Shown: positions 34,719-44,445 of the stretch, in pieces
Layout: each line of letters opens with the position of its first letter
Numbering within the stretch: position 1 is the first letter of the stretch
Source: Paracoccus aerius
Lineage (GTDB): Bacteria > Pseudomonadota > Alphaproteobacteria > Rhodobacterales > Rhodobacteraceae
DNA length: 64,000 bases
Direction: 5' to 3'
NCBI RefSeq assembly: GCF_014656455.1
Contig: NZ_BNCL01000011.1
Location: forward strand, 62,001 to 126,000
Program-made: the position numbers and the translations under genes
Notes under the pieces: generated by a model
Database searches by the model: none
What the model saw: the letters and a program-made list of their open reading frames with translations, nothing else
Told to the model about the DNA's origin: nothing

Positions 34719-35924
34719 TCAGCGGGGCTTGCCTGCAAGTTCCCGCAGATGCGCGATCAGGGCTGCCGGATCGCCCGCGCGATCGTCCAGCACGGCGCGC
34801 GCCGCCCAGCCCATCTGCCGCGCCCGGTCGGGATGGCCTGCAAGCGCGATAACCTGCTGGACAAGGCTGCCTGCATCGACGGGCTGGGCAGCCCCCGCGC
34901 CGTCCAGTGCCCCATAGGCGTCGCGGAAGTTCGACAGATGCGGACCATGCAGGATCGCGCAGGCATGGGCCGCAGGTTCCCAGGGCGTATGGCCGCCCCT
35001 GTCCGTCAAAGAGCCGCCGACAAAGCAGAGGCCGGCCGAGGCATACCAGCGGTCCATCTCGCCCAGGGTATCGGCCAGCAGCACGTCGCCACCGCTGTCG
35101 CCGGCCGAGCGCCGTTGATGTGCGATCCCGCGCTGTGCCAGAAGGGCGGACACCTGGTCCCCACGCTGCGGATGGCGGATGGCCAGGATCAGCCGCAGGT
35201 CGGGATGGTGCCGACGCGCCGCCGTCCAGGCGTCGAGGATCAGCGCCTCCTCTCCCTCGTGGGTCGAGGCCGCAAGCAGCGTGCGGTCGCGATGGGGGTC
35301 GGGCCGGGGCGGCCGGATGCGGGCGGGGGTCAGCAGCTTCAGGTCAAGCCGGGGCAGGATGGCAGCAGGCGGCAGGCCAAGCGCCAGCAGCCGCGCCTCG
35401 CTGTCCGGGTCTTGCGCCGAAAGGCCCGCAAGCCGGCCGAGCATCGGCGCGATGATCCCCGGCAGCCGCGCCCAGCGGGCAGCCGACCGCTGCGACAAAC
35501 GCGCGCCGATCATGGCCTGGGGAATGCCGCGACCGGCCAGAGCCTGCGACCGCAGCGGCCAGAACTCGGATTCGACGGTGACCTGCAATCTGGGTTGCGC
35601 TTGCGCCAGAAACCGCCTCAGCACCCCAGGCATGTCCATGGGGGCCAGGCGCGCCGCCGTTCCCCAGCCTGCCGCCATGTCCCGCCCGGTCAGGCTGTTT
35701 GCCGTCACCAGCACGCGATGCGACTGCGCCAGAGCCTCGATCACCGGGCGCGCCGATGTCAGCTCGCCCACCGAGGCCCCGTGGATCCAGATATCGGCGC
35801 GCGGCACGTCCATCAGCGTCAGCCGTTCGCGCAGCGTTTCCGGCCGCCCGACGCTGGCGCGGAGACGAAGCCCTTGTTCAAGAATGGCGGCAGCGGCGCG
35901 ATAGATCATGAAGGTCCAAGCCAT
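34719..35924 (-). CDS. waaA: 3-deoxy-D-manno-octulosonic acid transferase (Kdo transferase)
   Basis: WaaA adds Kdo from CMP-Kdo to lipid A precursor at the inner membrane, essential to LPS cores. The 401-residue protein has an N-terminal membrane-associated segment, the catalytic base motif IWIHGASVGE (about residues 46-55), VTVESEFWP (about 114-122), and GT-B C-terminal donor site ASTHEGEE (about 219-226). Its length is near the family norm of about 420. No lpxK or other LPS gene is adjacent. Also called kdtA. Confidence 0.93.
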   Translation of the reverse strand: MAWTFMIYRAAAAILEQGLRLRASVGRPETLRERLTLMDVPRADIWIHGASVGELTSARPVIEALAQSHRVLVTANSLTGRDMAAGWGTAARLAPMDMPGVLRRFLAQAQPRLQVTVESEFWPLRSQALAGRGIPQAMIGARLSQRSAARWARLPGIIAPMLGRLAGLSAQDPDSEARLLALGLPPAAILPRLDLKLLTPARIRPPRPDPHRDRTLLAASTHEGEEALILDAWTAARRHHPDLRLILAIRHPQRGDQVSALLAQRGIAHQRRSAGDSGGDVLLADTLGEMDRWYASAGLCFVGGSLTDRGGHTPWEPAAHACAILHGPHLSNFRDAYGALDGAGAAQPVDAGSLVQQVIALAGHPDRARQMGWAARAVLDDRAGDPAALIAHLRELAGKPR

Positions 35925-36037
35925 GCCAAGACCGTACGTCCCTCGTCAAGATGCTGTGGTCGGGCAGGAGGGGGTGCGAGGAACCATCCGAAAAAGATGA
36001 CGTTGGTTTTTCAACAACACAATTTCAGGAGGTTCGG

Positions 36038-36115
36038 ATGAAAGGATTAGTCGCCTGGTGGTTGGGTGTTCCCGTCGTCGTCATCGTGATTCTGTATGTT
36101 ATCGGAGTATTTTGA
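36038..36115 (+). CDS. 25-residue membrane microprotein
   Basis: This short ORF begins with ATG 8 bases after a strong AGGAGG Shine-Dalgarno and encodes 25 residues starting MKGLVAWWLGVP and ending VIGVF, almost wholly hydrophobic with one lysine near the N-terminus. That is a classic single-pass membrane microprotein (N-terminus inside). A Rho-independent terminator starts about 10 bases after the stop, so the gene has its own transcription unit. Codon use (TTA, GTA, GGA) is less GC-rich than its neighbours. Function unknown. Confidence 0.65.
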   Translation: MKGLVAWWLGVPVVVIVILYVIGVF

Positions 36116-36124
36116 ATCCGGTTG

Positions 36125-36165
36125 AAATGGCAAAGGGGCAGCAGGATTGGCCCTTCTGCCATTTT
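36125..36165 (+). terminator. Rho-independent terminator of the microprotein gene
   Basis: AAATGGCA (36125-36132) pairs with TGCCATTT (36157-36164), and the inner GGGC-GCCC bases extend the stem; the loop is AGCAGGATTG. It ends in TTTT (36162-36165). It lies 10 bases past the microprotein stop. Confidence 0.75.
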
Positions 36166-36413
36166 CACCTGCAATGGCGGGAACATTTTGATGAGCCCAT
36201 TTTTGCAAATCTTACCATTTAGTTAGGAGGATAAATAGTCGATTGAATAATATCGCGTACGTCAACCTGTAGTAGAATACATTTTGTTTTCAAGTAAATG
36301 GCTAAATTGGGCATAAACCTGTCAAATTAGACAAGTCGACGCAAACCCACGGGAAGATTAAATTTTATTCAGCAGATTGCTGAATGTGTTTTCCTGGTGG
36401 AAGGATTTGCCCC
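36166..36413. other. AT-rich intergenic region with inverted repeats
   Basis: About 250 bases of unusually AT-rich DNA precede the VPLPA-CTERM gene. It holds an imperfect dyad TGTC-N6-GACA (36320-36333, with flanking CC and AG), and a perfect 8-bp inverted repeat ATTCAGCA-GAT-TGCTGAAT (36367-36385) directly upstream of the VPLPA gene. I see no ORF with a good start signal and no complete promoter. Confidence 0.5.
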
Positions 36414-37079
36414 ATGTATTCCATGGCCTCTGTTTTTGCGCCTGCAATTCTTGCCGCGGGTTCCTTTGTCGCTTTTCCTGCGGCCGCGGCAACGGTGACG
36501 GTTCTTGACTCCAATCAGCCCTCGGGAACGGCGATCGATCTTGCGGTGGCTGATTTCGAACGCATCGGAAATTGCGGCGGGGGCGGGTCCGTCGTGGGGG
36601 ACGGTTGCGCGGTCGTCGCCAAGGCAAATCCCAAGGCCGCCCATGCCTTTGGCCGCTTTGATCCCTTGGGACATTATTGGATCGACAGCCAGGACATCAA
36701 TGAACTGAAATGGACAGTAAGGGCGCCGCAGGCTTTCACATCGCTCAGCTTTGCCCTGACGGATGCCCATGACCAGCCAAACAGTTTCTTCACGATGTCC
36801 TATATGGACAACGGAACCTGGACGCCGATCTGGAACATTGCCACGCGCAAGAACAACGGCAATCTGTATTGGCTGTCGGTCGATTTCGGTAAGGCGGTGA
36901 ACGAGGCGGTGTTCCTGTTCTCGACCAAGGTCGGGGCGGGATATGACGGCTATGGCATTTCGACGGCCCAGGTCAATTCGCCCGCGCCGGTGCCCGTCCC
37001 CCCTGCAGCCTTGCTGCTGGGCAGCGGGGCGTTGGTGATGGCGGGCCTTGGCCGCCGCCGCAGGAAAGGGCGCGGCTGA
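36414..37079 (+). CDS. VPLPA-CTERM sorting-domain exported protein
   Basis: The 221-residue protein has a signal peptide (MYSMASVFAPAILAAG to AAAA, cleaved near residue 27), a body without a recognised fold, and a C-terminal tail VPVPPAALLLGSGALVMAG followed by RRRRKGRG. That tail is a VPLPA-CTERM sorting signal: VPxPP motif, membrane helix, then basic cluster, as processed by exosortase XrtD-type enzymes. The exosortase gene is not in this window. GGAAGG lies 9 bases before the ATG at 36414; the in-frame ATG at 36384 falls inside the upstream hairpin and is rejected. Confidence 0.82.
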   Translation: MYSMASVFAPAILAAGSFVAFPAAAATVTVLDSNQPSGTAIDLAVADFERIGNCGGGGSVVGDGCAVVAKANPKAAHAFGRFDPLGHYWIDSQDINELKWTVRAPQAFTSLSFALTDAHDQPNSFFTMSYMDNGTWTPIWNIATRKNNGNLYWLSVDFGKAVNEAVFLFSTKVGAGYDGYGISTAQVNSPAPVPVPPAALLLGSGALVMAGLGRRRRKGRG

Positions 37080-42891: not shown

Positions 42892-44310
42892 TCAACCGGC
42901 TGCCATCTGGCGGGTGGGCAGGATCGCCATGTCGCGCGGGATATGGATCATGAACTCGCTGCCCTCGGCATCGCTGCGAACCAGTTCCAGCCGGCCGCCA
43001 TGCCCGCGCACCAGGTCGGCGGCGATGGTCAGGCCAAGGCCGGTGCCGCCCTTGCGCGCGCTGCCGGCGAAGGGCTTGAACAGGTATTCGCGCGCCTTTT
43101 CCGGCAGGCCGGGGCCGGTATCGCCCACGCGGATCCACCAGTCGCCGTCGGTTTCGCCGGCGCCGATCTCGACCGTGCCGGGCTGGCCGGTGCCTTCGAT
43201 CGCCTGGCGGGCATTTCGGGCAAGGTTGGCCAGCACGCGGTAAAGCTGGTCGCGGTCGGCGCGAATCGTCAGGCTGGGGGGAATGTCGCACAGGAACTCG
43301 ACCCTGAGCCCGCCGTGGCTTGCCAGGGTCTCCGCCTCGACGACCTCGGCCGTCAGTTGCGCAAGATTGAAGCGGGACAGCGTGGGGGCGGGTTCCTCGG
43401 CCTTGCCGAAGGCCAGCGTCGTCTCGCACAGGTTCACGGCGCGGCTGATCGAGTTCACCAGCTTGGGCGCGGCGCGCTTGACCTTGGGGTCGCCGCTGTC
43501 TTCCAGCCGGTCCGCGAAGATCTGCGCCGTGGTCAGGATGTTGCGCAGGTCGTGGCTGATCTTGGCGACCGCCTGTCCCAGTTGCGCCATCCGTTCCTTC
43601 TGCTTCAGGGACGAGGTAACGGTCTTCTGCATCGCCTCCAGCGCGGTTTCAGCATCGCGCAACTCGGCAAGGCGGGCGTCGGGGGTGATGATGTGGCGCG
43701 GATCCTCGGGCGCCTCGGCATAGGATACCATGTGGCTGATCACCCGGCGGATCGGAACCAGCATCAACCTTTGCACCGCCAGGTTCAGAAGGATCGCCGT
43801 CAGGATCGAGAAGGCCGCCGAAAGCAGCAGCAGCCGGAAGCCGTATTCCAGCATTCCCGCGCGCAGGGGCGCCGTCTCCATCGTGATCTCGATCAGTTGG
43901 CCCGCCTGGTTCACCGGGGCGCCGATGACCCGGATCACCTCGTTCTCGCGGTTGATCAGCGCGCCCAAGGCATCGTCGATGGTCTGGAGGACGCCTTCCT
44001 CGCGCAGGTCATAGGTCATCACAACCGGGCCGGGCAGCGGGGATTGCAGCACAAGCTGGCGGATATCGTCGCGGCGCAGGACCACGTTGAACACGCCGGC
44101 GTTCTGCAGAAGCTCGCTTTCCAGATCGTCGGCCAGCGATTCGTCGGTCGCCAGCAGCGCAAGGCTGGCGATCTGCGCGCGCTCCAGCCGCGACTCGAGG
44201 TAATCAAGCCGGAAGCTGGCCAAGGCAGGAAGCAGGATCAGCAGTTCGGCCAGCATGACGAAGATGATCGTCAATGCGGCGAATCGGCCAGAGATCGTGT
44301 TCAGTTTCAT
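42892..44310 (-). CDS. Orphan sensor histidine kinase
   Basis: The 472-residue inner-membrane kinase has TM1 at about residues 11-33, a periplasmic sensor loop to about 155, TM2 at about 156-178, a HAMP-like linker, and phospho-acceptor His253 in KISHDLRN. Catalytic boxes follow: NLARNARQAIEG (N box, about 359-370), GDTGPGLPEK (G1) and GGTGLGLTIAADLV (G2). No response regulator gene is adjacent, and its signal is unknown. It diverges from rpmH and lies upstream of tRNA-Arg. Confidence 0.9.
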   Translation of the reverse strand: MKLNTISGRFAALTIIFVMLAELLILLPALASFRLDYLESRLERAQIASLALLATDESLADDLESELLQNAGVFNVVLRRDDIRQLVLQSPLPGPVVMTYDLREEGVLQTIDDALGALINRENEVIRVIGAPVNQAGQLIEITMETAPLRAGMLEYGFRLLLLSAAFSILTAILLNLAVQRLMLVPIRRVISHMVSYAEAPEDPRHIITPDARLAELRDAETALEAMQKTVTSSLKQKERMAQLGQAVAKISHDLRNILTTAQIFADRLEDSGDPKVKRAAPKLVNSISRAVNLCETTLAFGKAEEPAPTLSRFNLAQLTAEVVEAETLASHGGLRVEFLCDIPPSLTIRADRDQLYRVLANLARNARQAIEGTGQPGTVEIGAGETDGDWWIRVGDTGPGLPEKAREYLFKPFAGSARKGGTGLGLTIAADLVRGHGGRLELVRSDAEGSEFMIHIPRDMAILPTRQMAAG

Positions 44311-44445
44311 GTAATCTTGATCATCAGCGCAGCAGATGCGCGTGTTTCAGCCCGACCGGCCCCGCTTTGCACATCAAACGAATGTGATATCCTAGCGGTT
44401 CCGCCACTGGAACAAAACAGGATGCGCGATTGTCCGCCTTTGTGG

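Follow-up and report, generated by a model that had tools for sequence, protein, structure and literature searches.

Known relatives in kind

Single-helix microproteins under stress control are a kind already known. Type I toxins such as TisB and Ibs are, like the microprotein described here, very short hydrophobic peptides with a stress promoter, and the small, hydrophobic and stress-linked PMP3/YqaE proteins (UPF0057) resemble it in one helix. It is established in other alphaproteobacteria that stress activates PhyR, whereupon NepR releases EcfG. According to the available excerpts of the cited papers, EcfG is a general-stress sigma factor restricted to Alphaproteobacteria (PMC3892343) and its consensus is GGAAC-N16-CGTT (PMC3892343, PMC7083833). 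The 27-residue YohP of E. coli is reported in the excerpted text to lower both membrane potential and membrane fluidity, and its production is linked to limiting nutrients and to the stationary phase (PMC12719787).

We analysed a 64,000-nucleotide stretch of Paracoccus aerius DNA (the window) that carries, on the plus strand, 25 codons from ATG 36038 whose product is MKGLVAWWLGVPVVVIVILYVIGVF. This microprotein has its length, a single hydrophobic helix and a basic second residue in common with YohP (PMC12719787, PMC7549839, as excerpted), and the conditions of YohP production can be likened to the stress-type control of the microprotein (PMC12719787). In contrast to the microprotein, YohP has no W-x-x-G-x-P, and its gene has mdtQ and dusC as neighbours in E. 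coli. Homology was rejected: against the family profile YohP reached -0.4 bits, a score matched by 462 of the 1994 YohP shuffles scored. The PMP3/YqaE proteins are longer, at about 50 aa compared to 25 aa, and homology to them (PF01679) was likewise rejected because the profile did not rise above shuffles (125/446 and 332/494 as good). PMP3 gave no match in the 13 Paracoccus genomes searched, nor did the microprotein match the Pfam Pmp3 model. Type I toxins differ in that the microprotein gene is chromosomal and conserved across much of Paracoccus, with no antisense partner seen. The EcfG/PhyR/NepR regulon is alike in that the microprotein promoter is identical to the published GGAAC-N16-CGTT and a nepR locus is present. 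We put the probability that this is a genuine gene, belongs to a wider family and is controlled by EcfG at roughly 0.88, a figure that covers these three statements and is kept apart from any action in the membrane.

A conserved gene of 25 codons

The microprotein gene occupies 36038..36115 on the plus strand (stop TGA, 36113-36115) and is supported by conservation and purifying selection. A Shine-Dalgarno sequence, AGGAGG, lies at 36027..36032 on the same strand, 5 nt 5' of ATG 36038. A preliminary description made from the sequence had listed these elements; reading 36027-36115 bore out the AGGAGG, the ATG, the 25 codons and the stop, but the 8-nt spacer given there was wrong, as the two motifs are separated by TTCGG (5 nt). 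Its remark on base composition held, with 46.7% G+C in the ORF and 41.3% in the AT-rich flank (36116-36413) compared to 66.2% in the whole window. It had further argued for a real gene rather than chance. The ORF at 36038 is the only one in the window that encodes 20-40 aa, has a Shine-Dalgarno sequence and is at least 80% hydrophobic, whereas first-order Markov controls contained a mean of 0.07 such ORFs per window (7 of 100 windows with one). The decisive evidence is conservation: a chance ORF is excluded by the conservation of homologues and by their substitution pattern. The product is probably a single-pass membrane protein, a location predicted from hydrophobicity alone.

Searching with a 19-member profile (E up to 0.01) revealed a homologue in 80/125 Paracoccus genomes, nearly all full length, and in 72 of the 113 genomes of good quality. 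Since 45/125 genomes gave no profile match at this threshold, the microprotein is dispensable. A single-sequence search at E up to 10 gave some match in 96/125 genomes, its weak tail consisting of partial matches within long ORFs. Most genomes have one family member; genome G043 has four (on C14, C11, C30 and C1), one of them diverged (L114).

The frame is kept in relatives. Exactly 25 codons were found in 82 of the 84 Paracoccus loci read; L114 has 24, and in L107 the frame is disrupted, departing past residue 23 and reading on. The outcome that would speak against a gene, namely a frame not conserved or frameshifted in relatives with only the hairpin kept, was looked for and was absent. Third-base variation with a constant protein, which the preliminary description had named as support, was also observed. 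Mean entropy over 76 distinct nucleotide sequences was lowest at second codon positions (0.20 bits) and highest at third positions (1.31 bits), and pN/pS was 0.29 over all pairs and 0.18 over close pairs, so that change is mostly synonymous. The pN/pS values are from 78/84 loci, with L100-L103 and L107 (unparsed) and L114 (24 codons) left out. Between the window and locus L002, for example, nine nucleotide differences comprise eight synonymous changes and one V-to-I replacement. P12 is present in 76/76 distinct Paracoccus sequences, and the parsing pattern demanded W and G but not this P.

A stem follows the stop codon after 8 nt (about 36124..36165, plus strand) and is a probable, if weak, intrinsic terminator or 3' stabiliser. 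The fold of 36116-36175 reached -26.2 kcal/mol (z -2.9), which was equalled by 1 of 200 shuffles. The strong stem within 10 bases of the stop was thus as first described, but the T-run was not: it consists of TTTT only, forms part of the stem's 3' arm and precedes CACC. The stem at 36124-36165 was not among the calls of a terminator scan. Across the homologous loci, the downstream 60 nt folded with z below -2 in 47/84, compared to 7/84 random 60-mers from the same loci. A hairpin of at least 8 pairs did not discriminate (74/84 homologous loci, 62/84 random), and TTTT stood at its 3' side in only 3/84. From these folds and counts, the stem is unusually stable yet weak as a classical terminator. 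Compared by eye across loci, the protein is more constant in sequence than the hairpin.

These observations bear on the alternative that what is conserved is a small RNA or a leader, the reading frame being incidental. The promoter described below and the hairpin do bound a transcript of ~150 nt. However, the synonymous pattern, the constancy of 25 codons in 82/84 loci and the differing sequence of the 3' stem between loci make this explanation extremely improbable, although a dual RNA/peptide role may exist. No Rfam family reached its gathering score within 35700-36700; the best candidate (E 0.026, 36384-36505, minus strand) fell below that score and was rejected.

The neighbouring genes provide context only. 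The divergent neighbour (34719..35924, minus strand) encodes a 3-deoxy-D-manno-octulosonic acid transferase (waaA/kdtA; Pfam PF04413 above cut-off) and recurs in 14/84 Paracoccus loci, all within the 30 that have 1.5-kb flanks. The downstream neighbour (36414..37079, plus strand) encodes a protein with a tail of the PEP/VPLPA-CTERM kind that scores below curated cut-offs; a homologue was found in 3/84 loci, most of the 84 having 500-nt flanks only.

Copies also occur on plasmids. A DNA query from another Paracoccus locus matched five Paracoccus plasmid records. All four that were read (P. denitrificans, P. pantotrophus, P. versutus and P. ferrooxidans) have both the gene and the strict promoter box; the fifth, NZ_CP035287, is left out of this count. 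In searches for a phage or plasmid origin, 25-aa protein queries matched nothing among plasmids or phages, and the window locus, used as a DNA query, matched nothing among plasmids. The protein result says little, because peptides of low complexity are subject to masking in BLAST and the DNA search from the other locus did retrieve five plasmid records. P. ferrooxidans CP038202.1 alone among the Paracoccus plasmid records read comes with a full gene table. In it, the only CDS that covers the microprotein is an 87-aa 'hypothetical protein' (496700-496963; L249), which is the microprotein called from a start farther upstream. The EcfG box lies inside this CDS, whose start is upstream of the promoter, and the microprotein is therefore hidden in the annotation.

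The EcfG-type promoter

Upstream of the gene, on the plus strand, is an EcfG promoter box at 35980..36004, with a -35 element GGAAC (35980-35984), a 16-nt spacer and a -10 element CGTT (36001-36004). The box starts 58 nt upstream of the ATG. The preliminary description did not mention this promoter; it had proposed a complete transcription unit, which the dedicated promoter at 35980-36004 completes. Taken by itself, the window holds two strict matches compared to 0.63 expected, and 12/100 shuffles held as many, which is not significant; the case for the promoter consequently rests on conservation.

To that end we scored the 84 Paracoccus loci. The strict box (GGAAC-N16-CGTT) was present within 120 nt upstream of the gene in 57/84 and a relaxed box in 63/84. 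Counting both strands, these loci comprise 298,724 bases and hold 59 strict matches, 57 at this place and 2 elsewhere; eight scrambled or re-spaced control patterns were found in 0/84 loci. The distance from box to ATG was 53-70 nt in 60 boxed loci, and the spacer sequences differ. The relaxed box was absent from 21/84 loci, four of which show a weaker box, three at a suitable distance. In three loci without a relaxed box (L073, L110 and L112), an upstream frame with a tail that we take to be short-chain-dehydrogenase-like stops 17-60 nt upstream.

The regulators are present as well. NepR was detected by profile above the Pfam cut-off in 123/125 Paracoccus genomes and, among 14 named control genomes, in Caulobacter only. 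In the P. aerius genome, a sigma-like (ecfG-like) ORF adjoins nepR and a PhyR-like ORF is divergent, both recognised by eye, and nepR is preceded by a box-like GGAAC-N17-GGTT. The gene thus has what is expected of an EcfG regulon member: a promoter at a suitable distance, and in the same genome a nepR locus with sigma-like and PhyR-like ORFs as read by eye. Which stress is inducing in Paracoccus is uncertain, because PhyR of Rhodobacter sphaeroides is reported, in the excerpted text, to serve membrane stress and not a general response (PMC5830050).

A second EcfG-type box (GGAAC-N17-CGTT) was seen in the window at 44377-44402 on the minus strand and is not, alone, above chance for the window. 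The ORF that begins 66 nt after its end (42892-44310, minus strand) encodes a sensor histidine kinase with HisKA and HATPase_c domains.

Being short, hydrophobic and encoded behind a stress promoter, the peptide could also be a type I toxin of the TisB/Ibs kind silenced by an antisense RNA, and a weak sigma-70-like match at 36133-36106 (minus strand) could be read in this way. Against this, the scanned 2.5 kb holds two sigma-70-like sites compared to 0.8 expected, nothing in 35700-36700 reached an Rfam gathering score, the protein changes slowly across Paracoccus and most genomes have a single copy. We regard a toxin as improbable.

Together, these results suggest the following course of events for the gene behind this box. 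Stress would activate PhyR, and NepR would let go of EcfG (in P. aerius NepR is recognised by profile, EcfG and PhyR by eye). EcfG would transcribe from about 36010 to about 36165, judging by the box, and the short mRNA would presumably be translated from AGGAGG. The peptide is predicted to insert as a single helix whose W would sit close to the interface and whose conserved G-x-P would form a kink. It may then alter membrane behaviour under stress, either as an accessory of a general-stress membrane protein or directly.

Family, candidate partner and possible roles

Relatives were found well beyond Paracoccus. The first profile matched in 24/295 genomes of the taxonomic family, two of them Paracoccus; a broader profile matched in 52/385 genomes of the class and 44/299 of the phylum. 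From the class and phylum, 43 of 44 loci were used; L138, which was misparsed, was left out. Of the 24 loci L037-L060, 22 were parsed, with L037 and L059 not found by pattern and L039 being Paracoccus again; 15 of these 22 have a box of the relaxed kind. Scanning named genomes with a pattern yielded 86 stretches, of which the 80 listed were parsed; 67 of these hold a frame of 22-27 aa, and the other 13 were not counted as members. Among 13 beta/gamma-type stretches, six (L255, L256, L258, L262, L263 and L265) gave no frame by pattern. The core I-L-[LA]-W-x-[LI]-G-[VI]-P was also seen in further Proteobacteria and in MAGs assigned to Chloroflexi and Rokubacteriota. Members occur, among others, in Bradyrhizobium (MGRGILLWLLGVPIPVIILLWLFFGR), Stenotrophomonas (MKMILLWLLGVPIPLLILYAIFF), Achromobacter and Roseomonas, as well as in MAGs labelled Chloroflexi, Rokubacteriota and Eremiobacterota, labels that may be wrong.

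In an alignment of 166 distinct members, G and P were present in 166, W in 162 and Y in 4; the search patterns demanded W and G, and for the named-genome set also P, so these core counts are partly by construction. The window microprotein has the features by which we recognise members, namely 22-27 aa, a core of W/Y, G and P, and one hydrophobic helix. No Pfam or NCBIfam model scored above its curated cut-off for the microprotein or for 19 members, and PHROGs gave no fitting model (best E 0.1). On these searches the family, with the core [KR]G-I-L-[LA]-W-x-[LI]-G-[VI]-P-I-[PV]-[VI]-I-I, is uncatalogued. With class taken from record titles, the strict EcfG box was present in 17/48 alphaproteobacterial named-genome loci and in 0/19 others. 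Such a split fits a sigma factor restricted to the class (PMC3892343, as excerpted).

Longer frames (at least 64 aa) holding an ILLW..G.P core were observed in L171, L185, L203, L208, L209, L211 and L229, from Planctomycetota, Phycisphaerales, Prosthecobacter, Luteibacter, Steroidobacter and a gammaproteobacterial MAG. An RPGKAR stretch was seen in the printed part of L171, L185 and L208. These frames are possibly a longer form of the microprotein family.

Outside Paracoccus, the gene often has a particular neighbour. Within 400 nt of the gene, 43/110 non-Paracoccus loci encode an unnamed membrane protein some 180-370 aa long, which was never found farther away within these loci of 1-8 kb and is on the same strand in 42/43. 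This arrangement was seen in Stenotrophomonas, in Achromobacter and in MAGs labelled Rokubacteriota and Chloroflexi, among others. Independent cases are fewer than 43, since nine are close Stenotrophomonas relatives. Four representatives of the partner (two non-Paracoccus, two Paracoccus) gave nothing above the Pfam or NCBIfam cut-offs. An AlphaFold2 model of the Achromobacter partner, built from 17 sequences (mean pLDDT 71.6, pTM 0.54), has by our own reading four long hydrophobic helices, and no PDB entry matched this model at E up to 0.001.

A homologue of the partner is present in 23/37 Paracoccus genomes searched, including P. aerius (G000:C28:3230-3988, E 6e-21), where GGAAC-N16-GGTT lies 90 nt upstream of its start. 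Under a relaxed pattern, without a scrambled control, 17/20 partner loci (19 Paracoccus and one from the class) have an EcfG-like box upstream. In 14/20 the partner is preceded by a different hydrophobic microprotein of 24 aa (MNSIIYLVGLVVVVLFILSLLGLR), which has relatives in 122/125 Paracoccus genomes and a box in 8/8 loci read (CGTT in 7). No Pfam or NCBIfam model matched its L271 form. The P. aerius copy, MNSIIYIVGLVVVVLFILSFLGLR (24 aa, hydrophobic), is at G000:C7:65852-65923 on the minus strand (L286), and a strict EcfG box precedes it by 86 nt. The frame that follows it presumably encodes a typA/bipA-like GTPase.

This linkage suggests that the microprotein could be a small subunit or modulator of a stress membrane protein, probably of four helices and with a W-[AG]-[AS]-I-[FL]-A-G motif, which is encoded beside the microprotein in other lineages and elsewhere in the P. 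aerius genome. For modulation of a membrane complex, which the preliminary description gave as frequent among microproteins of this size, the hints are genomic. The adjacency in 43/110 loci (counted without a random-locus control), the shared strand in 42/43, the boxed homologue in P. aerius and the boxes and second microprotein at 17/20 and 14/20 partner loci point this way. However, adjacency is not binding, and the partner is adjacent in 0/84 Paracoccus loci, 54 of them with flanks of about 500 nt only. A homologue exists in only 23/37 Paracoccus genomes, and non-Paracoccus microprotein copies beside the partner mostly have no strict box (1/14 and 0/11, compared to 16/34 and 14/32 for copies with no partner beside them). 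We consider an accessory role less likely than not.

Alternatively, the peptide might act alone in the bilayer, lowering fluidity and membrane potential and quietening metabolism, as reported for YohP. The similar size, the one hydrophobic helix, the basic second residue and the stress-type control fit such direct action. The gene in P. aerius stands alone behind its EcfG box, and its neighbours differ across Paracoccus. Nevertheless, the microprotein is not homologous to YohP, and its conserved core residues (P12 in 76/76) suggest a specific contact and not bulk hydrophobicity. We lean tentatively towards direct action while giving it less than an even chance. A role in membrane stress like that reported for PhyR of R. 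sphaeroides (PMC5830050, as excerpted) would suit both accessory and direct action.

A possible stress membrane module, and significance

We found no description of the family, of its EcfG control or of its partner in the main texts searched, and six core peptide strings of the family occurred in none of these. The available main text of a Sinorhizobium small-protein study contains neither 'general stress' nor 'RpoE2' (PMC10117765). No report of the microprotein as part of the EcfG regulon was found in the main texts searched; it may be listed as a hypothetical gene in supplementary regulon or small-protein tables. As excerpted, one such study lists many EcfG-regulated 'hypothetical proteins' and assigns no function to a considerable share of the regulated genes (PMC6599016). 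Because so many are listed in this way, the microprotein may be among them unseen.

Gene callers easily overlook genes as short as 25 codons. The present one is conserved, has a stress promoter, belongs to a wide family and is carried by the model organism Paracoccus denitrificans. The linked partner protein is a concrete candidate with which to test what stress microproteins contact. As a speculative extension, which we consider unlikely as a whole, a single-helix peptide of 22-27 residues and a four-helix W-A-I-F-A-G protein might form a stress membrane module that Alphaproteobacteria broke up and put under EcfG, with Paracoccus pairing the second, 24-residue microprotein with the same partner. 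If true, a stress membrane module undescribed so far would span Proteobacteria to Chloroflexi and Rokubacteriota.
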